Notes under the pieces: generated by a model
Told to the model about the DNA's origin: nothing
Seen by the model: only the letters and a program-made list of their open reading frames with translations
The model's database searches: none
NCBI GenBank assembly: GCA_014896235.1
Contig: JADBKU010000004.1
Location: 35,528 to 99,527, forward strand
Reading direction: 5' to 3'
Length of the DNA: 64,000 nucleotides
From: a bacterium
GTDB lineage: Bacteria > Desulfobacterota > Binatia > Binatales > Binataceae
In this document: positions 7,687-58,396 of the stretch, in pieces
Position numbering within the stretch: the first letter of the stretch is position 1
Layout: each line of letters starts with the position of its first letter
Position numbers and translations under genes: made by a program

Positions 7687-7857
7687 TCGGCGGATTGCGG
7701 CTTCCGCGCGCCTCGTGCAGTGCGCGCCGATGGGCGCCGCGCCGGCGCGGCAATGAATCCCTGATTACACGCTCCGCGCGCTTGACGAACGATTCAGTGT
7801 CGAACTACTTCAGATTCAGCCGGGTTACGAAATCCAAGGTCGAATCGAGGCTAAGTC

Positions 7858-9030
7858 ATGCGCGAAACCAACGAGCATATCCACAAACTCAAATACGCCG
7901 GCGCGGTTGACGCCGACGGCCACATCCTTGAGGACAAACGGCTGTGGGAGCGGTACTGCGAGGCTCGTTACAAAGCGACCGCGCTGCGGATCAAAGAGGA
8001 CGATGACGGCCTCGAATACCTTGAGATCGAAGGCCGCCCGTCGCGGGTCTCGCGCAAAGGCACGTTCAGCAATATCGCGGCGATGGGCGAGGTGACGCGC
8101 GAAAAGGGCTCATTCGATCCGCGCCGCAAGTACGGCGAAAACGTGCCGCTCGGCGCGGTTGACGCCAAAGAGCGCGTCGCGCGGCTCGATCGGGAAAATC
8201 TTCGCGCCGCCATCATTTATCCAAGTCTCGCGCTGACCTGGGAAACGGAGTGCGATAACGCCGACTATGCGCAGGCGATGACGCGCGCGTACAATCGCTG
8301 GATCGTCGATTGGTGCAGCGAGAATCCGTCGCGGCTGATTCCCGTCGCCCATCTCTCGCTGGGCGATCCCGCCGCCGCGGCGGCGGAACTGGAGCGCGCC
8401 GTCAAAGCGGGATGCAAGGGCGGCTGGGTCGTTCAATTCACAATGACTCGCAAGCCGCACGCTCATCCGGATCACGACGTGCTGTTCGCCAAGGCGCAGG
8501 AACTCGATGTGCCGATCGGCATCCATGTGTCGCTTGAGCCGCAATGGGCGCTGCCCGGCCGCTACGCGCTCGAATACGTGCGCAAACAGCATTTTTTCCT
8601 CAACGTGACCGCGTCGGACGCGAGCCGGCATGCCCTCGCCAGCTTCTTTCAATACGGAACGTTCGATCGCTTTCCGAAGCTCAAGATCGTAATTCTTGAG
8701 GTCGGCGCGGGCTGGACGAGCTACTGGTTTGACCGCATGGACGCGGTTTACGACAGCGTAATCGGCCGCGGCGTGCCGCTTAAGGAACGCCCGAGCGCGT
8801 ATTTCAGAAGAAACGTCTGGGTTTCAGCCGACCCTGATGAACATGCGCTGCCCTCGATGATGGAACTGTGCGGCGAAGATCGCTTTTTCTGGGCTTCCGA
8901 TTTTCCGCATCCCGACCACACCGGCAATTACCTTGAGGAACTCGAAGAGGCCGCCGAAAAACTTCCGCCGGCGCCGCGTGCGAAATTGCTCGGCGCAAAT
9001 GTGATCCGCGCCTACAACCTGAAATTCTGA
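7858..9030 (+). CDS. amidohydrolase family protein (ACMSD-like TIM barrel)
   Basis: A 390-residue metal-dependent hydrolase/decarboxylase of the amidohydrolase-2 family. The N-terminal metal motif is DADGHILE, with His as the remaining typical ligand of the usual DxHxH-like site. Later motifs are IGIHVSLEP (His), the strand ILEVGAGWTSYWFDRMD, and ASDFPHPDH carrying the C-terminal catalytic Asp. This family includes ACMSD-like decarboxylases and hydrolases of aromatic breakdown products; the substrate is not evident. ATG start with GAGG 7 nt upstream. It follows the second acyl-CoA dehydrogenase by 171 nt and is closed by a strong terminator. Confidence 0.88.
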   Translation: MRETNEHIHKLKYAGAVDADGHILEDKRLWERYCEARYKATALRIKEDDDGLEYLEIEGRPSRVSRKGTFSNIAAMGEVTREKGSFDPRRKYGENVPLGAVDAKERVARLDRENLRAAIIYPSLALTWETECDNADYAQAMTRAYNRWIVDWCSENPSRLIPVAHLSLGDPAAAAAELERAVKAGCKGGWVVQFTMTRKPHAHPDHDVLFAKAQELDVPIGIHVSLEPQWALPGRYALEYVRKQHFFLNVTASDASRHALASFFQYGTFDRFPKLKIVILEVGAGWTSYWFDRMDAVYDSVIGRGVPLKERPSAYFRRNVWVSADPDEHALPSMMELCGEDRFFWASDFPHPDHTGNYLEELEEAAEKLPPAPRAKLLGANVIRAYNLKF

Positions 9031-9069
9031 CTCTGAATTCCTTCTGCGCAGCTTCCCTTTGGACCGAAA

Positions 9070-9104
9070 AAAAGCCCCACGGCCAGCGCGACCGTGGGGC
9101 TTTT
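9070..9104. terminator. bidirectional rho-independent terminator
   Basis: Stem AAAAGCCCCACGG (9070-9082) pairs perfectly with CCGTGGGGCTTTT (9092-9104) around a 9-nt loop. The A run on the left and T run on the right make it work in both directions, between the amidohydrolase (ends 9030) and the convergent korB (ends 9130). Confidence 0.92.
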
Positions 9105-9129
9105 ATGCCTGTTACGGACTATACGGAGA

Positions 9130-10128
9130 TTAACTGACGGTCCAAGTATCGCCGCGTTTCAGCAGATCGGCAAGATTGCCCTCGCCCTGCTTCGCGCGCG
9201 CTTCGGCCAACTGTGCATTCATCGCGGCGTCGTAAGTAGGCCTGCTGGTCGCATAGAAAACGCCGATCGGCGTCGGCAGCGGCGCTTGGAAGTTTCCGAG
9301 CATGAACGCAAGCGCGAGATTGGTCTCGTCGTGAACGATCAGCTCAGCCTCGGTCACGCCGTTGCCCAGCGTCACAACCTCGGGCCGATTGCCGTTCATC
9401 CTGACGCCCTTGTCGCGATTCTTGCCGAAAATCAGCGGCTTGCCATGTTCAAGCACCAACTGATGGTCGGCTTTGATCGCCTTGTCCGTAACGTCGTTGA
9501 ATGCGCCGTCATTGAAGATATTGCAGTTCTGCAGTATTTCGACGAACGACGCGCCACGATGGCTGTGCGCGCGCTTCAGCGTCTCGCCCAGATGCTTCTG
9601 CTCAACATCGATCGAGCGGGCGACGAAGGTCGCATTCGCCCCTAACGCAATCGTAATCGGGTTGAACGGAAAATCGACCGACCCCATCGGCGACGATTTC
9701 GTCACCTTGCCAACCTCGGAAGTCGGCGAGTACTGCCCCTTGGTCAATCCATAAATTTGATTGTTGAAGAGCAGGATGTTGAGGTCGATATTGCGCCTAA
9801 GGGCGTGAATCAGATGATTGCCGCCGATCGAGAGGCCATCGCCGTCGCCGGTCACCACCCAGACGTCCAAGTCGGGGCGCGTAATCTTGAGGCCGGTCGC
9901 GATCGCCGGCGCGCGGCCATGGATGGTATGGAATCCGTACGTGTTCATGTAGTACGGAAACCGGCTTGAGCATCCAATGCCGGAGATGAACACCACGTTT
10001 TCGCGCGGAATTCCAAACTCCGGCATGACCTTCTGCACCTGCGCCAGAATCGCGTAGTCGCCGCATCCCGGACACCAGCGCACTTCCTGGTCGGAAACGA
10101 AATCTTTTCGCGTAAGCGCCGTAGCCAT
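9130..10128 (-). CDS. korB: 2-oxoacid:ferredoxin oxidoreductase, beta subunit
   Basis: A 332-residue thiamine-diphosphate-binding subunit of a 2-oxoglutarate (or related 2-oxoacid) ferredoxin oxidoreductase, which decarboxylates the oxoacid to acyl-CoA and reduces ferredoxin. The N-terminal RWCPGCGDYAIL carries the first two FeS cysteines; a third is in GIGCSSRFPYY. The ThDP motif is GDGDGLSIGGNHLIH, followed by NNQIYGLTKGQ, which is diagnostic of the family. ATG at 10128 is preferred over the TTG at 10134 because GGAGGG is about 10 nt upstream. It directly follows korA, with the stop and start regions only a few nt apart. Confidence 0.93.
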   Translation of the reverse strand: MATALTRKDFVSDQEVRWCPGCGDYAILAQVQKVMPEFGIPRENVVFISGIGCSSRFPYYMNTYGFHTIHGRAPAIATGLKITRPDLDVWVVTGDGDGLSIGGNHLIHALRRNIDLNILLFNNQIYGLTKGQYSPTSEVGKVTKSSPMGSVDFPFNPITIALGANATFVARSIDVEQKHLGETLKRAHSHRGASFVEILQNCNIFNDGAFNDVTDKAIKADHQLVLEHGKPLIFGKNRDKGVRMNGNRPEVVTLGNGVTEAELIVHDETNLALAFMLGNFQAPLPTPIGVFYATSRPTYDAAMNAQLAEARAKQGEGNLADLLKRGDTWTVS

Positions 10129-10134
10129 CGCCAA

Positions 10135-12033
10135 TCAGCCCTCCAACGATCGCGAGATCCGGTTGATCAGCTCGTTGACCTTGAACGGGCGTCCCTGGAT
10201 CTTGTTGCAGCCGATCGCGTCAATCAAATAATCGGCGCGCACCAGCTTGAGCAGTTGTCCCATGTTCATCTCGGCGACCATCACCTTCTTGAATTTGCGC
10301 AATTGCTCGCCAAGGTCCGAAGGCAGCGGATTGAGGTAACGCAGATGAATATGCGAAACGCTCTTGCCCTTGTCCCGCATTTGCTTGACCGCTTCGCGCA
10401 CGGCGCCGTACGTCGAGCCCCATCCGAGCACCACCAGATCGCCGCCGTTCACGTCGCCAAAGATTGTGGTGGCTGGAATTTCGCGTGCAATGCCGGCGAT
10501 CTTGCGCGCCCGCGTCCGCACCATCAGCTCGTTATTGGCGGGCGAATAGCTGACGTTGCCGGTCTGATCTTCGCTCGAAAGTCCGCCTATCCGATGCTCC
10601 AAACCGGGCGTGCCGGGCACCGCCCATGGACGCGAAAGCGTTTCAGGATCGCGTTTGTAGGGAAGGAACCCGTCCGGATTCGACGCGAATTCGACTTTAA
10701 TCGGCGGCAGTTTGCTCACGTCGGGCAGCAACCATGGTTCCGCCCCGTTCGCCAGTTGTCCATCCGTAAGCAGAATCACCGGCGTCATGTATTTGACCGC
10801 GAGCCGGACCGCTTCATAGGCGCACTCGAAGCAATCGGCCGGCGTTGAAGCCGCGATAATCGGAATCGGCGACTCGCCGTGCCGGCCGTACATCGCCATC
10901 AGCAGGTCCGCCTGTTCCGGCTTGGTCGGCATACCCGTGGACGGACCCGCGCGTTGAATGTCCGTGATCACCATCGGCAATTCGGTTTTCACCGCAAGAC
11001 CGATCGCTTCGGCCTTGAGGTTCATCCCGGGCCCCGAAGTGGTGGTGAGCGCGATCGCGCCGCCGAACGCCGCGCCGATCGCCGAACTCACCCCGGCAAT
11101 CTCGTCTTCGGCCTGGAATGTATAAACGCCGAAGTTCTTTAACGCCGCAAGCTCATGCAACACGTCGCTCGCCGGCGTGATCGGGTATGAGCCAAGGAAA
11201 AGCGGACGGCCGGACTTTACGGAGGCCGCGACGAAGCCGAGCGCGGTCGCAGCGTTGCCGGTGATGTTGCGATAGAGGCCGGGAACGATCTTCGCCGGCT
11301 GCACCTCGTAAGAACTGGCGAACATCTCGGTCGTTTCGCCGTAATTAAATCCTGCTTTCAGCGCCATCAGGTTGGCGTTCAGCAATTCCGGCGTCTTCTT
11401 GAAGCGCCCCTCGAGCCAGCGCTCGGTGCTTTCGATCGGGCGCTGGAACAGCCACGACAGCATCCCGAGCACGAACATATTGCGGCAGCGGAAGACCGCG
11501 CGATTGTTCAGTCCCGTGCTGTGCAAGGCCGCCGTCGTCAGCTTCGTAACGTCAACCTGAAATACCTGGAATTTGTCTAGCGAATGGTCGGTCAGCGGGT
11601 TGGAGGAATAGCCTGCCCGCTTGATATTCGCCTCGGTGAACGCTTCGCGATCGACGATGATGACGCCGTTCGGGGGCAGATCATCCAGATTGGCCTTGAG
11701 CGCCGCCGGGTTCATCGCGACCAGCACGTTCGGTTCGTCGCCGGCGGTAAAGACTTCGCGGCTCGAAAAATTGAGCTGAAAGCCGCTCACGCCGGCGATC
11801 GTGCCGGCAGGAGCGCGGATTTCAGCCGGAAAGTCGGGCAGCGTAGCTATATCGTTTCCCGCCAGCGCGGATTCGGCGGTGAACTGCATTCCCGCCAACT
11901 GCATTCCGTCACCCGAGTCGCCCGCAAAACGGATTACGACGCTGTCGCGCCGCGCATGCGGCTTCGCGGCGGCGCCGCCTCCGAGACCTGAGGACTCGGC
12001 GGCGTGTCCGGCCGCCTCAGGTGGTAGAGCCAT
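10135..12033 (-). CDS. korA: 2-oxoacid:ferredoxin oxidoreductase, fused gamma-alpha subunit
   Basis: A 632-residue subunit in which the gamma domain (from SVVIRFAGDSGDGMQLAG) is fused to the alpha/pyrimidine-binding domain (SYPITPASDVLHEL, TTTSGPGMNLKAEAIGLAVKTELP, QRAGPSTGMPTKPEQADL). This fused alpha plus separate beta layout, without a small ferredoxin subunit, matches KorAB of aerobic actinobacteria. In such organisms it can bypass 2-oxoglutarate dehydrogenase. 2-Oxoglutarate is the likely substrate, but pyruvate or branched oxoacids cannot be excluded. Start is uncertain: ATG at 12033 has AGGAG 11 nt upstream, and an in-frame GTG at 12069 would add 12 residues. A candidate promoter lies at 12125-12152. 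Confidence 0.92.
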   Translation of the reverse strand: MALPPEAAGHAAESSGLGGGAAAKPHARRDSVVIRFAGDSGDGMQLAGMQFTAESALAGNDIATLPDFPAEIRAPAGTIAGVSGFQLNFSSREVFTAGDEPNVLVAMNPAALKANLDDLPPNGVIIVDREAFTEANIKRAGYSSNPLTDHSLDKFQVFQVDVTKLTTAALHSTGLNNRAVFRCRNMFVLGMLSWLFQRPIESTERWLEGRFKKTPELLNANLMALKAGFNYGETTEMFASSYEVQPAKIVPGLYRNITGNAATALGFVAASVKSGRPLFLGSYPITPASDVLHELAALKNFGVYTFQAEDEIAGVSSAIGAAFGGAIALTTTSGPGMNLKAEAIGLAVKTELPMVITDIQRAGPSTGMPTKPEQADLLMAMYGRHGESPIPIIAASTPADCFECAYEAVRLAVKYMTPVILLTDGQLANGAEPWLLPDVSKLPPIKVEFASNPDGFLPYKRDPETLSRPWAVPGTPGLEHRIGGLSSEDQTGNVSYSPANNELMVRTRARKIAGIAREIPATTIFGDVNGGDLVVLGWGSTYGAVREAVKQMRDKGKSVSHIHLRYLNPLPSDLGEQLRKFKKVMVAEMNMGQLLKLVRADYLIDAIGCNKIQGRPFKVNELINRISRSLEG

Positions 12034-12124
12034 TTCCCTCGATACTCCTCTTTGGCTGACAGCCCGCACGCATCGCGGAATCGCGGTGCGTTAGCTGGAC
12101 CGATAGTTCAAATGTCGATCTAAA

Positions 12125-12152
12125 ACTATAGCTAATGACGCGCGTAAGTAAA
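12125..12152 (-). promoter_or_regulatory. candidate sigma-70 promoter for korAB
   Basis: On the minus strand, TTTACT (12152-12147), a 16-nt spacer and TATAGT (12130-12125) match the -35/-10 consensus at 4/6 and 5/6. It lies in the AT-richer gap between acyP and korA, about 90 nt upstream of the korA start. Confidence 0.45.
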
Positions 12153-12181
12153 AGGGATAACGCCAGCTCCCGACAAACCCG

Positions 12182-14511
<2,330 letters not shown>

Positions 14512-51468: not shown

Positions 51469-53751
51469 TCAGATCAGGCCGATGCCGCCTTTGCGAATCA
51501 GCCGCACGCCAATCTTGCGCAAAAATCCCGTCGGCAGTTCCGCTCCGATCATCGCGAAGATGACGTCGTTATCGAGCTCGATTGGACCCGCGGCTTCAAC
51601 CTCCGCGGAGCCGGTCGCAGGCGCGCTTTTGACTCGTTCGAGCACGACTTTCCCTGGCAAAATCCGTTTGAGCGCGGTCGCGGGTAAAACGGTGACGAGA
51701 CCAGCGCGTTGCAAATCGCTGACTCTTTCCGCGTTATCGCGCGATACGTTGGTCAGCACCGCCGAGCGATACGAATAAACCACATGATTACCCAATTCCG
51801 GCCGGGCCAGCGCCTGAACCACCTCGGAACCGGAATTGCCGCCGCCAACCACCAAAATCCGCCGCTGATGAAATTCGTTGGCGTCGATAAGATTGTAAAA
51901 AACCCGACCCGGCTCTTCGCCGGCCAGCCCCAGACGGCGCGGATTGCCGCGCACGCCGATCGCCAGAACGACAGTGCGAGCGCGATAGACGTTGCCCCGT
52001 TCCGTGCGGACAAAAAAACGCTCGCCGCTGGCCGCGATATCGACAACCTCTTCGCGATCTTTTATCACCAGCTTCAATTCCGCGATGATTCGTTCCCACT
52101 CCTGGATCAGACGCTCGCGCGAATTGTCGCCCTCAAGGAAAAAAGACCCATATTCCGCGATATCGATCGGCGTCGCCTGCACGAATTTGGCGCGCGGGTA
52201 CGCGCGCAATGTGCTCGCCGGCGTCATCCGCTCCAGCGTGACGTAATTCAGTCCCATGCTTGCCGCGGTGGCAGTCGCGCCAAGGCCCGCAGGCCCACAT
52301 CCCACAATCAGAACGTCGTATAGATTGGGATCGGTCGAACGCGGCATCCGGCGCAATTCCGCCGCGATCGCTTCAATCACCTGGCGGCCCGACCGCATCG
52401 CCAGATTGATTGAAGCGGTGCCGGCCGCCTCGCCGATCACGTAGAGCCGCCGCACGCTGGTCTGGAACGTATCGTCGAGCGCCGGCGTCTCGCGGGTGCG
52501 TTGCGGCGCCACACCGGCGATCACGTCCGGCTCGACAGGCGCCTTCGGCAGCATCATGACCAAGCCAAAGATGCAGATCGCGGCGACGGCGAGGCCAGCC
52601 AAACCGATCGGCCATAGGCGAATGGTAATCGCTTGGGCCGCAAAAGGCGCCCGCGCATGGCCATGCGCGCTTAACACCGGCAGTGGAATCGTCAGCACCA
52701 CGCGTTTCTCGGCGCCGGGCAATCGCGTCAGCGCGCGCCTGGTGAAATCGTTGGACGGTACGGGACCGTGCGTGTGAAAAAGATGGCAGTCAGAGCAGGC
52801 CGTCACATGTTTGGCGACGGCGCCGCCAGCGGCTCTATCGTCAGCCGCAAATGCGACCGCGCCTTGACCGATCCATCGGAGGGCGGCGACTTCGGGCGCG
52901 GCGCCCTGATGCGCATGGCATTTGAAGCACTGTTCGATCTTTAACGAAGCCTCGTCGTCCGGCGCGACGCTCGACGCCATCGCGAAATGACACTCCACGC
53001 ATGGCGTGCGCAGATGGCCGGGCGAATGGGTGAAGACCGCATTGATGTGCAGGACTCGCGACGTATACGGCAGCGTCTTCGGCGACGTTCCGACCGATGC
53101 GGGCAATTGGAGAAACGAATCCTGTGGCGCGAGATGGCATCCGGCGCCCGCGCATCCACTCCACTTGAAGCTCATCTTTTCCGCGCCGGGCGGTTTGACG
53201 GGTTCGATCGAATGACATGATTCGCAGCGAAAGCCGCCCGGAATCGCCGGATAGTGCGACTCCATCAGCAGCTTGTGTTCGTGATGATTGAAGGGCTTGC
53301 GAAACGTGTAGCTGGCCGCCTCGTGCCGCTCCATGAACGCCGCCATGTGCTCCTGCACGCCGGCTATCGATGGATGTTTGTGACACCATTGGCAGGCGAA
53401 AGTCGCCGTCGCTTCGAGATCGACGCGCGCGCCCTGATGCTCGCGATGGCAACTGCGGCAGGTCAATTCGTTGTCGGGCGTGACGAACAATCTCTTTCCC
53501 GCTATCAGCCCGTCGATGCTCGAGGTCACGTCCAGCCCGCCGTGCGGGTTCATATCCTCGATCGATCCGTGGCAGGCGATACAGCGCTGGTTTTGAACGC
53601 CTCGCCAAGGCGCGTGGCATGAAGCGCAGCCTCCGGAAAGACTCTGATGCGCGGCGAGCAGCGGGCCCGGTTCGTAGCTGCGATGCGTCGCGAGCATCGC
53701 GCCGACGAAGGCGATGACGATCGCGCCGGCGATAAAGGCCGCCCATCTCAC
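51469..53751 (-). CDS. membrane-anchored multihaem cytochrome c fused to a NAD(P)/FAD oxidoreductase
   Basis: A 760-residue chimera. Order: N-terminal membrane anchor (residues 3-22). A periplasmic haem region (42-323) has eight CXXCH sites (42-46, 57-61, 98-102, 120-124, 176-180, 251-255, 275-279, 319-323) and one CX4CH (200-206). A second membrane helix (376-401) precedes a cytoplasmic flavoprotein part: LYVIGEAAGTASINLAMRSG near 437-456, dinucleotide motif GCGPAGL (484-490) and second motif GGGNSG (636-641). No CXXC redox thiol is seen, so it is not a thioredoxin reductase. GTG start at 53751 overlaps the upstream gene by 4 nt (GTGA). Likely transfers electrons between NAD(P)H and periplasmic haems. 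Confidence 0.88.
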   Translation of the reverse strand: MRWAAFIAGAIVIAFVGAMLATHRSYEPGPLLAAHQSLSGGCASCHAPWRGVQNQRCIACHGSIEDMNPHGGLDVTSSIDGLIAGKRLFVTPDNELTCRSCHREHQGARVDLEATATFACQWCHKHPSIAGVQEHMAAFMERHEAASYTFRKPFNHHEHKLLMESHYPAIPGGFRCESCHSIEPVKPPGAEKMSFKWSGCAGAGCHLAPQDSFLQLPASVGTSPKTLPYTSRVLHINAVFTHSPGHLRTPCVECHFAMASSVAPDDEASLKIEQCFKCHAHQGAAPEVAALRWIGQGAVAFAADDRAAGGAVAKHVTACSDCHLFHTHGPVPSNDFTRRALTRLPGAEKRVVLTIPLPVLSAHGHARAPFAAQAITIRLWPIGLAGLAVAAICIFGLVMMLPKAPVEPDVIAGVAPQRTRETPALDDTFQTSVRRLYVIGEAAGTASINLAMRSGRQVIEAIAAELRRMPRSTDPNLYDVLIVGCGPAGLGATATAASMGLNYVTLERMTPASTLRAYPRAKFVQATPIDIAEYGSFFLEGDNSRERLIQEWERIIAELKLVIKDREEVVDIAASGERFFVRTERGNVYRARTVVLAIGVRGNPRRLGLAGEEPGRVFYNLIDANEFHQRRILVVGGGNSGSEVVQALARPELGNHVVYSYRSAVLTNVSRDNAERVSDLQRAGLVTVLPATALKRILPGKVVLERVKSAPATGSAEVEAAGPIELDNDVIFAMIGAELPTGFLRKIGVRLIRKGGIGLI

Positions 53752-54650
53752 GGCAGACCCACGTAATAAAACGCGCCGGCGATGTGAAAGACTATGGCGA
53801 CGGCGAAAGTGGCGACCAGCGCGATATGGAAAACCAACCACGCCGCGCTCAGGCGCAAATTGAAACGATTAAGCTCAAGCCGGACTTTGGTCGCGGCCAG
53901 ATCGATCAACCGCTCGAATAACTGCCTATCGCCGGACAGACCGGCCGCGGCGCGGCGCGCGCGGCCGCATGCCGCCGCGGCGGGGTCGCGGCCGGTAAGC
54001 GTCGCAAAAAACAATCGCGCCAGAGGCTGTGCGCCAGTCAGCAGTGGACGCACTTCCGCCAGATAAAGCCGCACCAGTTGCTCGGAATGGCCGAGGATCG
54101 TCTCTTCCGCCTCGAGATAGAGCTGATGGTATGCGGTTTCGATGTCTTCAAGGCGGACTTCGTAATCCGGCCGCTTGCGCATCGCCGGCGGTAGCAGGTC
54201 ATGAATCAATGTGCCGCACAGCCCGCTCGCGACAATCAGAAAGACCAGCACGAAGATCAGCCGTTCCAGCGGCGTCGCGGGACCGGCGTTGACATGCCAC
54301 CAGAACGGCAGCAGCGCGAAGATGCCCAGCGTGATATGAAGCGTACGCCAGGTTTCAAGCCGGTCGACCGTGACCATCCGCCGCGCGATCGCATGCGGCA
54401 GATGCGCCGTCGCGCGCAGCCATCGCACGGATAACCAGAGCGATCGCTTGCGGGCGCTGTAGGCCGCCGCCAGCAAAAACACGCCAAGCGTGAGCAAGCC
54501 CGTGCGGTACGAACCAAGCCGCGGCCCGAGGCCGGCGGTGAATGCATGAATCGCCGCGACCGCCGCGGCGCAAATCGCCGCCCACAAGGTCACCGACGCT
54601 ACCGGAGCGGTATGACGCCGATCAGCGGCCTCGCCTATTCGCTCGCCCAC
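53748..54650 (-). CDS. bis-haem b membrane protein (ferric-reductase-like helical bundle)
   Basis: A 300-residue protein with about five membrane helices (20-40, 51-66, 103-122, 129-150, 268-298) and a cytoplasmic domain at 155-262. The charge of loops 67-101 and 155-265 puts them inside. Helix 3 contains His105 and His119, helix 5 His275 and His289. Both pairs are HX13H, the spacing that holds two stacked b haems in NOX/ferric reductase and cytochrome b proteins. No FAD domain of its own is present. It lies between the FeS/cyclic-nucleotide gene (21 nt upstream) and the multihaem/FAD gene, which it overlaps by 4 nt. GTG start at 54650. Confidence 0.82.
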   Translation of the reverse strand: MGERIGEAADRRHTAPVASVTLWAAICAAAVAAIHAFTAGLGPRLGSYRTGLLTLGVFLLAAAYSARKRSLWLSVRWLRATAHLPHAIARRMVTVDRLETWRTLHITLGIFALLPFWWHVNAGPATPLERLIFVLVFLIVASGLCGTLIHDLLPPAMRKRPDYEVRLEDIETAYHQLYLEAEETILGHSEQLVRLYLAEVRPLLTGAQPLARLFFATLTGRDPAAAACGRARRAAAGLSGDRQLFERLIDLAATKVRLELNRFNLRLSAAWLVFHIALVATFAVAIVFHIAGAFYYVGLP

Positions 54651-54671
54651 CCTGCTCGCTCAGCCCGCGGC

Positions 54672-56246
54672 CTAATCGCTGCCGCCGCGCGCTTTGCGCA
54701 CGCGCGACCCTTCGCTGACGGCGCCGGTCTCCTCGAAGAGTTTCGCCGGATCGATCCTGATCGCCGCGCCCGTCGGACAATTATGCACGCAGCCCATGAA
54801 GGGCAGGCCGTCGCAGAGATCGCACTTGATTGGAAACGCCGGCGGCGTATGTTCCCGGACGCCCGCGAGCGGCGCCGGTTTGCGCTTGGAGCCGCCGCCG
54901 CGCCCCGCGCCGAACAGGCGCGCCCAGAGTCCCGGCTCGCCGATATCGTGCGCCGCGGCGGGAAACGGACGGAAGAAATTGGCGTCGTTCATGACGCGCG
55001 ATTTGCGTGCCTGCGCGCGATCGAACGTCGGCGCGTCGATCATCGCGATGTTGTCGTACGGACATGCGATCGCGCAATTGCCACATCCGATGCACATCTC
55101 GTACTGGAAATAAATCTCGCCTTCGGGCCGCCGCTTGATCGCGCCGGTCGGACAACTGTTCATGCATTTGGGATCGTCGCAGTGGCGGCAGGCGCTCGGC
55201 ACCAGATAGTGGCCAAGCTTGATGCCGTTGCGAATCAGGCGGCTGCGGCCGTGCAGCGCTTCGCAGGCTTTGACGCAGTTGTCGCAATTGATGCACAGGT
55301 CGAGGTCCATCACCAGCAGCGCGTCGGCCTGAATCACGCCCAGTTGGCCACTGCGCTCGAGCAGTTCCGAAAGCTCCGGGGTGACGTTACGCTCCTGCTC
55401 GCGGCGGCGCTCGATCACCTTGCGCGCGCTCTCTTCGACCTGCGGAAAGCGCCGGCAGAGGTCAAGAAAGTCCTCACGATTGATCTTGATCAGTTCGCAT
55501 TTGCCGGCGGTGAGCACGCTGGCCCAGCGCACGCCCGTCTCGAACAGCGCCATCTCGCCGAAATATTCGCCCGCGCGCAGATAGGCGAGCACGCGATGGC
55601 TGCCGTCCTCGCGCGCGCGCACCACCTGCACGAAGCCGTCGCGCACGAGATAGAGCGCGTCGCCCGGTTCGCCCTGCGTCACAATCGGGATGCCGCGCAG
55701 GTCGTAGCGCAGGATTTCGCATTTCTCCGCAAGTTCGTTGATGCTCTCGATCGGCACGCCGCGGAACAGTTCGTTTTCGATCGCCGCGATGCGCACGGCG
55801 CGATCGCGATAGCGCCGCGCCAGCGCCTCGCGTGCGTATTGATTGATCTCGACGTGCTTCAGGGCGTGGCGCGGAATGTAGAAAATTTCCGTGTCCTCGC
55901 GCGCGACCACGTCGACCGTCCGCGGCAGGCCCCCGATCGCGCCGAGTTCGCCGAACTGGTTGCCGGCTTTGAGCGTCGCGACGAAATGCGCCTCTTCGGG
56001 GCCGCTGTCGTCACGCAAATCGACGCTGCCGGACAGGATGCAGCACAGGTCGAGTTCGTACTCGCCCTTGCGGCAGATTATCTCGCCGGCTTTGAACTCC
56101 CGCGTCCGCATCGCCGGATCCTGTTCGTACGCCTTCAAAAACGCGTCGCGTTGTTCGTCGGTGAAGCGGCTGAAAATATCGAGCGCCGTCAACCGCCGCC
56201 ACAGCAGCCACGGCGGAACGCGCTCGGTCGCGGGATCATTCGCCAC
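54672..56246 (-). CDS. cyclic-nucleotide-binding / four-cluster ferredoxin fusion protein
   Basis: A 524-residue soluble protein. Two cyclic-nucleotide-binding-type domains (about 24-140 and 156-265) are followed by a linker and a DmsB/NrfC/HybA-like ferredoxin domain. Four cysteine sets follow: 318/321/324/328, 353/356/361/365, 385/388/391/395 and 475/478/486/490. That is 16 ligands for four [4Fe-4S] clusters in the order usual for such subunits. A basic Pro/Gly-rich insert lies at 430-465. No DNA-binding domain is present, so binding of the nucleotide may alter electron transfer and not transcription. GTG start at 56246; first gene of the operon. Confidence 0.88.
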   Translation of the reverse strand: MANDPATERVPPWLLWRRLTALDIFSRFTDEQRDAFLKAYEQDPAMRTREFKAGEIICRKGEYELDLCCILSGSVDLRDDSGPEEAHFVATLKAGNQFGELGAIGGLPRTVDVVAREDTEIFYIPRHALKHVEINQYAREALARRYRDRAVRIAAIENELFRGVPIESINELAEKCEILRYDLRGIPIVTQGEPGDALYLVRDGFVQVVRAREDGSHRVLAYLRAGEYFGEMALFETGVRWASVLTAGKCELIKINREDFLDLCRRFPQVEESARKVIERRREQERNVTPELSELLERSGQLGVIQADALLVMDLDLCINCDNCVKACEALHGRSRLIRNGIKLGHYLVPSACRHCDDPKCMNSCPTGAIKRRPEGEIYFQYEMCIGCGNCAIACPYDNIAMIDAPTFDRAQARKSRVMNDANFFRPFPAAAHDIGEPGLWARLFGAGRGGGSKRKPAPLAGVREHTPPAFPIKCDLCDGLPFMGCVHNCPTGAAIRIDPAKLFEETGAVSEGSRVRKARGGSD

Positions 56247-56621: not shown

Positions 56622-57854
56622 TTGGAAAGTGTGAAGAATTCGGATTTCAGCGCCGAAGAACTCAAGCTAATCGCCGATACCGCGAAGCGGCTCCAGCCAA
56701 ACCTGAAATCGCTGGCCGAGCGCTGGGCGCAAAAGTTGCCGATCGACGCGCCTGAAGACAAGCGCGCAGCGATTCGCGCCACAGTCGCGACGATGGGACT
56801 GGAATTTCTGCGTTCGTTGTTCCAGCGGCTGGCGAACGGCGACCCGGAGGGCGCGATCGCGGAATATGGCCGGATTCTGGAGCGGCAGATGCGCGAGCGG
56901 ATGCGGCCAGCTCCGGCCGGCCGCGCCAGGATCGAGGATCTCTATAATTTCTCGAAGAGCTTGCGCGACGAAGTGCGCGAAGCTTTGCTGGCGGTTCTGG
57001 ATGGCCCGCCGGAAGCCGTACTGCGGGCGCGCCTCGCCTACGCGCGCATCTGGAGCGAAGCCGCGGAAATCCTGACCATTATCTACGCGCGGCTCTACCG
57101 CGAAATCGTCGCGGAATCGGAGCGGGCTTTGATCGCGGCGCGCGACGCCGCGCTCGAAGCGTCGCGGCTCAAGTCCGCGTTCGTCGCCAACGTCACACAC
57201 GAAATCCGCACTCCGCTGAATGTCATTCTCGGCTATGCGGATCTGATGGCCGAACGGCTGGCGGAATTGCGCGACGAAAGCGCCGCCCAGTATGCCGACT
57301 CGATCCGTCGCGCGGGCAACCGCCTGCTGGCCACGATCGGCGCGATCCTCGACCTGTCGCGAATCGAATCGGGCGCCTACGAAATCAGTCCCGCGCCGAT
57401 CAGGCTGGCGACCGTGGTTGAGCGGCACGTGCGCGATCTCGACGTGCTGGCCCGCAAAAAAGGTCTCGAACTGGTGCTGAACATTGAAACGCCCGACGCG
57501 ACCGTGATGTTCGACGAGCAATGCCTCTCCAACACGATCACCAACCTGCTGCAGAACGCGATCAAATTCACCGACTCCGGCGGCGTCACGTTGCGTATTT
57601 TCCAGGAAAACGGAGGCGTCTGTCTCGAGGTGGCGGACACCGGCGTCGGAATCGATCCGCTCTATCTGCCGAATCTGTTCGAGCCGTTTTCGCAGGAGGC
57701 GATGGGCGCGACGCGGCGCTTCGAAGGCGCCGGGCTGGGACTCGCGCTGGTGAAGCGCTACGTGGAGCTGAATGGCGCTCGCGTCGATGTAAGCAGCGAA
57801 AAGCGCGCCGGCACGACTTTTCGCGTGCATTTCCCGCAAACTCTCAACGTATGA
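56622..57854 (+). CDS. soluble sensor histidine kinase with an RsbRD-type N-terminal domain
   Basis: A 410-residue cytoplasmic histidine kinase. Residues 10-165 are all-helical and resemble the RsbRD N-terminal (globin-like) sensory domain, with RWAQKLP at the start and a later KSLRDEVREALL helix. A coiled linker leads to the HisKA domain with His193 in NVTHEIRTPLN. The HATPase domain has N-box NLLQNAIKFTD, VADTGVGID, the F-box LFEPFS and GAGLGLALVKR. No response regulator is adjacent. Start is uncertain: TTG 56622 has no clear ribosome-binding site, and GTG 56631 is an alternative. Divergent from the redox operon, which suggests but does not prove control of it. Confidence 0.85.
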   Translation: MESVKNSDFSAEELKLIADTAKRLQPNLKSLAERWAQKLPIDAPEDKRAAIRATVATMGLEFLRSLFQRLANGDPEGAIAEYGRILERQMRERMRPAPAGRARIEDLYNFSKSLRDEVREALLAVLDGPPEAVLRARLAYARIWSEAAEILTIIYARLYREIVAESERALIAARDAALEASRLKSAFVANVTHEIRTPLNVILGYADLMAERLAELRDESAAQYADSIRRAGNRLLATIGAILDLSRIESGAYEISPAPIRLATVVERHVRDLDVLARKKGLELVLNIETPDATVMFDEQCLSNTITNLLQNAIKFTDSGGVTLRIFQENGGVCLEVADTGVGIDPLYLPNLFEPFSQEAMGATRRFEGAGLGLALVKRYVELNGARVDVSSEKRAGTTFRVHFPQTLNV

Positions 57855-58009: not shown

Positions 58010-58396
58010 ATGCCCACGAAATTGTATGTAGGCAACCTCGCCTACTCGGTTACCAATGACGACCTGGAAGCGTTGTTTTCGCAGGCGGGAAAGGTCGACA
58101 GCGCCACTGTGGTAGTGGACAAATTCTCCGGCCAGTCCCGCGGTTTCGGTTTCGTCGAAATGGCGGATTCGAACGAAGCCGCCAAGGCGATCGAAGAGTT
58201 CAACGACGCTGAACTCAAGGGCCGCAATATCCGCGTTAACGAAGCGCGTCCGCGCGAGGCCGGTTCCGGACCGCGCGGGGGTGGTTTCGGCGGCGGTGGC
58301 GGCGGCGGCCGTGATCGTCGGGGCGGTGGCGGCGGCGGTCCGCGCGGTGGCGGCGGTTTCGGTGGTGGCGGCGGCGGACGCGATCGCCGCTGGTAA
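58010..58396 (+). CDS. glycine-rich RRM RNA-binding protein
   Basis: A 128-residue RNA-binding protein. One RRM occupies residues 4-80: RNP2 LYVGNL (5-10) and RNP1 SRGFGFVEM (43-51), with aromatic RNA-stacking residues Tyr6, Phe46 and Phe48. The tail (about 85-128) is a Gly-rich, RGG-type segment with Arg/Asp patches (GGRDRRGG and a final GGRDRRW). This structure matches bacterial Rbp proteins, often cold-induced RNA chaperones. A strong ribosome-binding site GGAGGGG lies 6 nt before ATG. The gene is monocistronic with its own promoter candidate and terminator. Confidence 0.95.
   Translation: MPTKLYVGNLAYSVTNDDLEALFSQAGKVDSATVVVDKFSGQSRGFGFVEMADSNEAAKAIEEFNDAELKGRNIRVNEARPREAGSGPRGGGFGGGGGGGRDRRGGGGGGPRGGGGFGGGGGGRDRRW

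Follow-up and report, generated by a model that had tools for sequence, protein, structure and literature searches.

The window analysed here, a 64,000-nucleotide stretch of contig JADBKU010000004.1 from a 3.5-Mb metagenome-assembled genome of Binataceae type (95% complete), contains three successive minus-strand genes, designated A, B and C, whose products probably form a membrane complex that carries electrons from NAD(P)H to a periplasmic acceptor, likely under the control of a cyclic nucleotide. Protein A joins two cyclic-nucleotide-binding (CNB) domains to a ferredoxin with cysteines for four [4Fe-4S] clusters, B is a predicted di-haem b membrane protein, and C combines a multihaem c region with a flavin/NAD(P)H domain (Table 1). 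The open reading frames leave a gap of 21 nt between A and B (54651-54671) and an overlap of 4 nt between B and C (53748-53751), which confirms the three-gene operon described in the original prediction, an earlier reading of this DNA.

The search with B covered 57 genomes, the window's own included, and gave a match in 19 of them; 20 loci were fetched, and the B homologues that carry names belong to Candidatus Binataceae. A, B and C stand in this order in each of the 16 loci (from 15 genomes) that belong to the same family and have a close B; four of these are cut by contig ends (L027, L028, L031, and L032), and gene A is present in each of the 16, one copy being cut. When the reading frames of these loci were compared, A, B, and C (with their antisense shadows) alone recurred in nearly all, other neighbours occurred in seven loci at most, and the genes flanking the trio turned over beyond the genus. 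An origin of the trio by chance or artefact was ruled out, since the three genes recur in 16/16 same-family loci while their flanks do not. One relative (L039) carries tandem copies of A (7798-9429 and 9604-11217, minus strand) preceding B and C, and in L041, also of the same family, a B-like protein of 262 aa (8591-9379, minus strand) stands as an orphan with neither A nor C nearby. Three distant loci were also found, two with A, B and a multihaem protein (L042, L043) and one with a multihaem protein alone (L044), and a B profile search of the class gave matches in 35 of 118 genomes.

The wider scan for A used two Fe-S peptide patterns and one genome per species, and kept the best 80 of 309 relatives; 79 of these loci have an open frame with CNB and Fe-S parts, L068 being dropped as it has no full A frame. 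This set overlaps with the Binatia relatives, as several records labelled Deltaproteobacteria or Proteobacteria are contigs of those relatives. In 72 of the 79 loci, B is found no more than 6 kb from A and on the same strand; the seven loci without it comprise three cut by a contig end (L089, L097, L113) and four uncut ones (L056, L057, L074, L095). An adjacent frame with at least four c-haem motifs accompanies 69 of the 72 A+B pairs; some of these frames are truncated or split over two genes, and in L122 the multihaem frame precedes A. According to the titles of the database records, A+B is spread over ten phyla and A+B+C over nine. The count of c-haem motifs in 64 distinct cytochromes gave ten CXXCH for 41 full-length ones, and nine sites for the window's family. 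The query with a gammaproteobacterial A returned 6943 proteins at E <= 0.001 among 7998 candidates scored, perhaps not all of them this fusion, so the family looks abundant under generic names. Among the carriers, Verrucomicrobia bacterium IMCC26134 (L124) has A-B-C, and Colwellia sp. PAMC 20917 encodes a homologue of the A in which FAD, CNB and ferredoxin parts are fused. The original prediction had proposed one electron-transfer module between cytoplasmic NAD(P)H or ferredoxin and a periplasmic acceptor, together with a search of other genomes for its neighbourhood, and held that a lack of conserved co-occurrence would refute it. The co-occurrence is conserved (72/79 for A+B, 69/72 with a multihaem cytochrome), and both this and the lineage-specific exchange of reductases described below speak for a module that joins cytoplasmic NAD(P)H to periplasmic haem.

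Protein A matches PF00027 in two stretches (134.6 bits against a cut-off of 27.5, E 1.2e-39) as well as the Fer4 families of Pfam. Its 16 cysteines, at residues 318/321/324/328, 353/356/361/365, 385/388/391/395, and 475/478/486/490, are invariant or nearly so in a 17-row alignment, and the fusion of two CNB-type domains with a four-cluster ferredoxin, first read from the sequence, is thereby upheld. The ferredoxin part resembles DsrO, DmsB and HybA, but its matches to these models are all far below their cut-offs, including those of the equivalogs TIGR02951 (59.6 against 214.1 bits) and DsrO NF045797 (59.8 against 200 bits), and A differs from these ferredoxins in its fusion to two CNBs. The window's operon also lacks a molybdenum enzyme and an NrfD-type subunit, and an ordinary Fe-S subunit of the DMSO reductase or hydrogenase type was ruled out by the scores and the different partners.

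The cassette of CNB1 contains a Glu and an Arg whose columns we take to be the phosphate-binding cassette of CRP/PKA-type CNB domains. In a column-exact count, both residues are kept in CNB1 of 75 of the 87 distinct A proteins, in CNB2 of 46/87, and in at least one CNB of 80/87; this count supersedes a looser pattern count (77 for CNB1, 27 for CNB2, and 82 for either, of 87), which took Gln for Glu and gave false passes. In the window's family, the CNB1 pair is present in 15/15 distinct rows. A shares the cassette Glu/Arg with the CNBs of CRP and PKA regulatory subunits, but its CNBs are fused to a ferredoxin instead of to a DNA-binding, kinase or channel part. These comparisons make it plausible that a nucleotide gates electron flow through A, while two observations weigh against such a gating step: the cassette of the window's family is unusual just after the Arg (R-[ST]-x-D), and CNB2 is less conserved than CNB1, with seven of the 87 proteins having the pair in neither domain. 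Because of the unusual residues after the Arg, and because the CNB2 pair is missing in 4/15 rows of the window's family, the ligand in this family could be a different one.

The AlphaFold2 (AF2) model of B (mean pLDDT 87) contains five helices, in agreement with the helix count read from the sequence, and the four histidines of its two HX13H motifs are kept in 90-91 of 91 rows of an alignment that includes duplicates, the one deviating row being a fragment. All four are invariant in an 82-row alignment, as are G51, W101, G143, G146, and W271. In the single sequence the motif pair says little, since 4% of shuffles of this protein also give two HX13H motifs. In the loop at residues 70-97, B homologues have on average 5.0 Lys and Arg against 1.3 Asp and Glu, so the loop is probably cytoplasmic, which would place H105 and H275 on the inner side of the membrane and H119 and H289 on the outer side.

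NOX enzymes and ferric reductases pass electrons from NAD(P)H through FAD to two stacked b haems, held by two helices with HX13H-type motifs (the third and the fifth in NOX). With this group (PF01794), B would share the two HX13H-type helices and an outward passage of electrons across the membrane, whereas the flavin domain is FNR-like there and YpdA/TrxR-like here, and NOX/FRE proteins have neither a CNB-ferredoxin nor a multihaem c subunit. The B protein of the window has no match to PF01794 at E up to 1 and none to any Pfam family above its cut-off; among 82 B members, weak Pfam matches (E up to 0.1) fall on DUF4405 (30), b561 (15), ferric reductase (12), and DUF4079 (12). Foldseek with the B model returned nothing at E <= 0.001, and a PDB profile search with the B alignment gave five matches, none of them a natural haem b protein, the best (E 0.039) being a two-domain di-Zn(II) and porphyrin-binding protein. 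No ferric-reductase structure is among the VIA rows listed for B, and a family outside that listing could still match. The top VIA rows are cytochrome b6, and together with the weak matches to b561-type families they point to another reading, in which B would be a quinone-reactive di-haem b protein, the complex an NAD(P)H:quinone or quinol:cytochrome oxidoreductase, and the CNBs ligand-free dimerisation modules. The presence of the CNB2 pair in only 46/87 A proteins would suit such modules, but the CNB1 pair is widely kept and the b6 match is no better than the helical-bundle background, and we consider this reading rather unlikely.

The third protein, C, has eight CXXCH motifs and one CX4CH; shuffling its residues 1-420 gave a mean of 0.05 and a maximum of 2 CXXCH. 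The c-haem sites are conserved in an 11-row alignment, in which the ninth site is either CX4CH or CXXCH and is altered in L093. The flavin part matches Pyr_redox_3 of Pfam (E 1.6e-28) and is of the YpdA/TrxR type by profile and fold, while the cut-off of the YpdA equivalog TIGR04018 is not reached (103.1 against 339.9 bits). Motif counts, Pfam matches and hydrophobic stretches agree with the architecture that had been proposed for C, namely two membrane helices, nine c-haem sites and an NAD(P)H/FAD domain. CXXC is absent from residues 471-760, where C485 is the lone cysteine, and a role as thiol reductase was ruled out for that reason.

Judged from the order of its segments, the flavin domain of the C-fused version is circularly permuted, its last FAD-binding segment not being C-terminal. 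Separate profiles of the segment and the core found the order segment-core in 11/11 C-fused domains and core-segment in 9/9 A-fused ones. The segment of C matches its expected place in the lipoamide dehydrogenase 6cmz (residues 295-341, E 0.0023), and residues 476-756 of the AF2 model of C, whose mean pLDDT is 50 and which was used for the flavin part only, align with residues 2-269 of YpdA (a 322-residue chain). The position of the segment at the front would let the flavin domain hang from the second membrane helix of C. Unlike YpdA and thioredoxin reductase, C thus has no CXXC, is permuted, and is tethered to a multihaem membrane protein.

The NAD(P)H front end differs among lineages. In 28/79 loci, A or C carries a fused flavin/NAD(P)H domain or NuoG-like N-terminus, 12 further loci have a same-strand adjacent reductase gene (a count that misses L079), and no reductase front end was found in 17/79. 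Most types rest on blastp against a single example of each, with Pfam on some examples only. A YpdA-type domain stands on the N-terminus of A in nine loci, all recorded as Pseudomonadota, and is fused to C in eleven (ten Binatia and one Myxococcota). The NuoG-like N-terminus occurs on A in eight loci (Acidobacteria, Rokubacteria, Methylomirabilota, and two others without B), and a NuoEF-type protein adjoins it in 7/8; Pfam checks were made in L050 and L086 for the NuoG-like part and in L053 and L086 for NuoEF. An FNR/NqrF-type flavoprotein with 2Fe-2S is found in twenty loci, mainly of Verrucomicrobiota and Alphaproteobacteria, either directly before A (ten loci and the partial L104), elsewhere in the locus, or within A (L122); L104 and L110 are partial matches, and Pfam was checked in L124 and L122. 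An NDH-2-like protein is nearby in eight loci, on the opposite strand in four. By Pfam, a CNB is fused to the NDH-2-like protein in L048, L069, and L090, and also in L054 and L086, which have NuoEF too and were typed as NuoEFG. The NDH-2-like protein of the three Ktedonobacter-group loci carries forkhead-associated (FHA) domains, checked by Pfam in L046 only. In three acidobacterial loci, a YpdA-like protein with FHA is encoded at a distance of 2.4-3.3 kb, with Pfam checks in L091 and L098.

On the A+B tree (72 rows, none of them lost to a 150-aa filter), the seven front-end types of the 59 typed rows are explained by six changes, the fewest that seven types allow. The 13 rows without a found reductase are left out of this figure, and 15 changes are needed when they are treated as an eighth group. 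The clade order is unsure because the tree was built quickly and has some long branches. We read this as one core in which the electron entry would have been exchanged repeatedly, each time for a kind of NAD(P)H dehydrogenase.

Signalling domains are also present around the module, and the cyclases among them speak for control by a cyclic nucleotide. In L043 and L093, protein A has FHA domains beside its CNBs; in L042 they stand on C (8988-12980, plus strand), a protein of 1330 aa with three FHA domains, ten CXXCH, a 4Fe-4S dicluster and a flavin domain. Homologues of class III cyclases, all of one family, occur in 11/79 loci (977 kb in all 80 loci), and PF00211 was found in 9/10 scanned cyclases, the tenth being cut by the locus end before that domain. 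These 11 loci represent neither independent events nor one operon, since several are close relatives, the distances are of kb size, and the cyclase in L108 is on the opposite strand. The loci L102, L106, L107, L111, L120, and L121 contain a CHASE2-cyclase, and L082 and L084 a cyclase (with an FHA match in L084). For comparison, PF00211 is matched three times in the 3.5 Mb of the window's genome; on contig 21 of that genome, at about 17.3-19.3 kb, a class III cyclase domain and a separate CNB domain are about 1 kb apart. Related frames lie near the module in 15 loci (e.g., L050:5111-7075 and L064:5560-7665), some on the opposite strand; the protein is secreted-looking, and the two frames scanned contain HbpS-like stretches.

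Such surroundings would also suit a redox sensor, in which A reads the state of haem or quinone through B, and the CNB/FHA domains signal to a cyclase or kinase. The FHA domains accompanying the module in L042, L043 and L093, the cyclase homologues, and the HbpS-like relatives (domain checked in two of the 15 loci) are all in keeping with this. However, a sensor would have no need of several kinds of attached NAD(P)H dehydrogenase, NuoEF-type included, and ten haems in C would be more than sensing calls for, which makes a purely sensory role very unlikely.

For electron transport, a conduit from NAD(P)H to the periplasm is well supported by the co-occurrence of the genes and the exchange of the reductases. 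NAD(P)H would reduce the flavin, and electrons would pass from it through the four iron-sulphur clusters of A to the inner b haem of B, then to the outer b haem, and through the nine c haems of C to a periplasmic partner. A cyclic nucleotide on CNB1 would change the docking of A or the spacing of its clusters and thus open or close the path. The 70-97 loop of B and the soluble part at residues 152-241 would lie inside, and the c haems outside, the side on which haems of this type are attached. We infer the assembly, cofactor content, topology and outward direction of A/B/C, as well as the gating by CNB1, from these features. The gate may plausibly exist because both the NAD(P)H pool and the membrane potential would be run down by an open wire between NAD(P)H and the periplasm. 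The three A+B loci without a cytochrome all belong to Ktedonobacter-group Chloroflexota (Ktedonobacter, Ktedonospora), bacteria not known to have an outer membrane, and this restricted absence fits the outward route. Large multihaem proteins near the module in 11 loci (e.g., L056:581-4366, which also matches the LVIVD repeat) are candidates for an extracellular partner.

The same anatomy would serve an inward flow that starts from a periplasmic donor, passes through the c haems and ends in the reduction of NAD(P)+ or ferredoxin; the CNB domains would then act as an on-switch. A lithotrophic role of this kind is compatible with all results, and multihaem conduits can run both ways, as is said of Mto/Mtr in one paper (PMC10734462). 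Nevertheless, by established bioenergetics most donors could pass electrons inward to NAD(P)+ only uphill and in opposition to the membrane potential, and the conserved A-B-C genes include no recognisable proton- or sodium-translocating subunit. Inward flow is therefore unlikely in our view.

Table 1. Coordinates of the A, B and C genes and of their predicted parts in the window.
Feature	Position	Strand	Basis
Gene A, CNB-CNB-4x[4Fe-4S] protein, 524 aa	54672..56246	-	PF00027 (twice) and Fer4 families (Pfam)
A, CNB1, approximate limits; cassette FGELGAIGGLPRTVDVVA with E100 and R109	55827..56114	-	Pfam, alignment
A, CNB2, approximate limits; cassette FGEMALFETGVRWASV	55383..55769	-	Pfam, CRP-like matches at about residues 160-286
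A, DmsB/DsrO-like ferredoxin part, 16 Cys for four [4Fe-4S] clusters	54762..55316	-	Profiles, alignment
Gene B, predicted di-haem b membrane protein, five helices, 300 aa	53748..54650	-	AF2, pLDDT 87
B, H105-X13-H119 (helix 98-120), predicted haem b ligands	54294..54338	-	91/91 rows; AF2 helices 98-111 and 113-120
B, H275-X13-H289 (last helix), predicted haem b ligands	53784..53828	-	90/91 rows, the other a fragment; AF2
Gene C, membrane helix, nine c-haem sites, membrane helix, flavin/NAD(P)H domain, 760 aa, GTG start at 53751	51469..53751	-	
C, N-terminal membrane helix, residues 2-20	53692..53748	-	Hydrophobic stretch; low-confidence model
C, multihaem c region	52783..53628	-	CXXCH at 42, 57, 98, 120, 176, 251, 275, 319; CX4CH at 200
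C, second membrane helix, residues 379-400	52552..52617	-	Low-confidence model; hydrophobic stretch
C, relocated last FAD-binding segment, residues 412-470, ahead of core	52342..52518	-	Segment order; match to 6cmz
C, YpdA/TrxR-like FAD and NAD(P)H core, residues 474-756, no CXXC	51484..52332	-	

Two further genes lie upstream of A on the plus strand. The divergent gene at 56622-57854 is sensor histidine kinase-like by sequence, has homologues in 5/16 same-family loci, and is a possible regulator. The gene at 58010-58396 encodes a short glycine-rich RRM-type RNA-binding protein by sequence, with 86-98% identity in 7/16 same-family loci. In the window's genome, the MtrB/PioB porin (PF11854) had 0 matches, the search being confined to this porin type, and an outer-membrane porin-cytochrome conduit of the MtrAB/PioAB type was rejected for the host as no MtrB/PioB was found.

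Geobacter-type Cbc, ImcH and CbcL complexes join inner-membrane b haems to multihaem c domains, some with Fe-S subunits. To our knowledge, they are menaquinol oxidases and have neither CNB/FHA domains nor an NAD(P)H dehydrogenase part; the comparison with the module is one of general description. The combination of A, B and C was not found in full-text searches of an open-access library, in which PMC10734462 and PMC11264602 were the only papers to come up; this is consistent with the original prediction, which knew of no described system with this combination. The nearest trace is a 'Forkhead-associated protein' with 10 c-haem motifs, listed for 27/87 iron-oxidising Gallionellaceae (PMC10734462, Table 1), which by that table's description has FHA and 10 haem motifs in common with C of L042. 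The parts are known and the combination apparently is not, and there is a substantial chance that it represents a separate class among transmembrane electron conduits.

It is possible, though we hold it somewhat doubtful, that the module stands for an undescribed class of redox complexes that spans phyla and in which a second messenger directly gates electrons, as a redox counterpart of the cyclic-nucleotide-gated channel. Such a class would have a fixed core (CNB-ferredoxin, di-haem b protein, and c cytochrome with about ten haems), with NAD(P)H dehydrogenases of five kinds or more plugged into it in the course of evolution, namely NuoEFG-like, FNR/NqrF-like, NDH-2-like, YpdA-like, and circularly permuted YpdA-like ones. 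We know of cyclic-nucleotide switching in channels, kinases, and transcription factors, and of no such switching in a respiratory or extracellular-electron-transfer complex. If the proposed gating is true, many phyla would switch a wire from NAD(P)H to the periplasm at the protein level by cyclic nucleotides. The lineage-specific exchange of reductases provides natural experiments on docking surfaces, and the finding opens to experiment the question of how reductant is disposed of in organisms that have multihaem cytochromes yet lack a recognised porin conduit.

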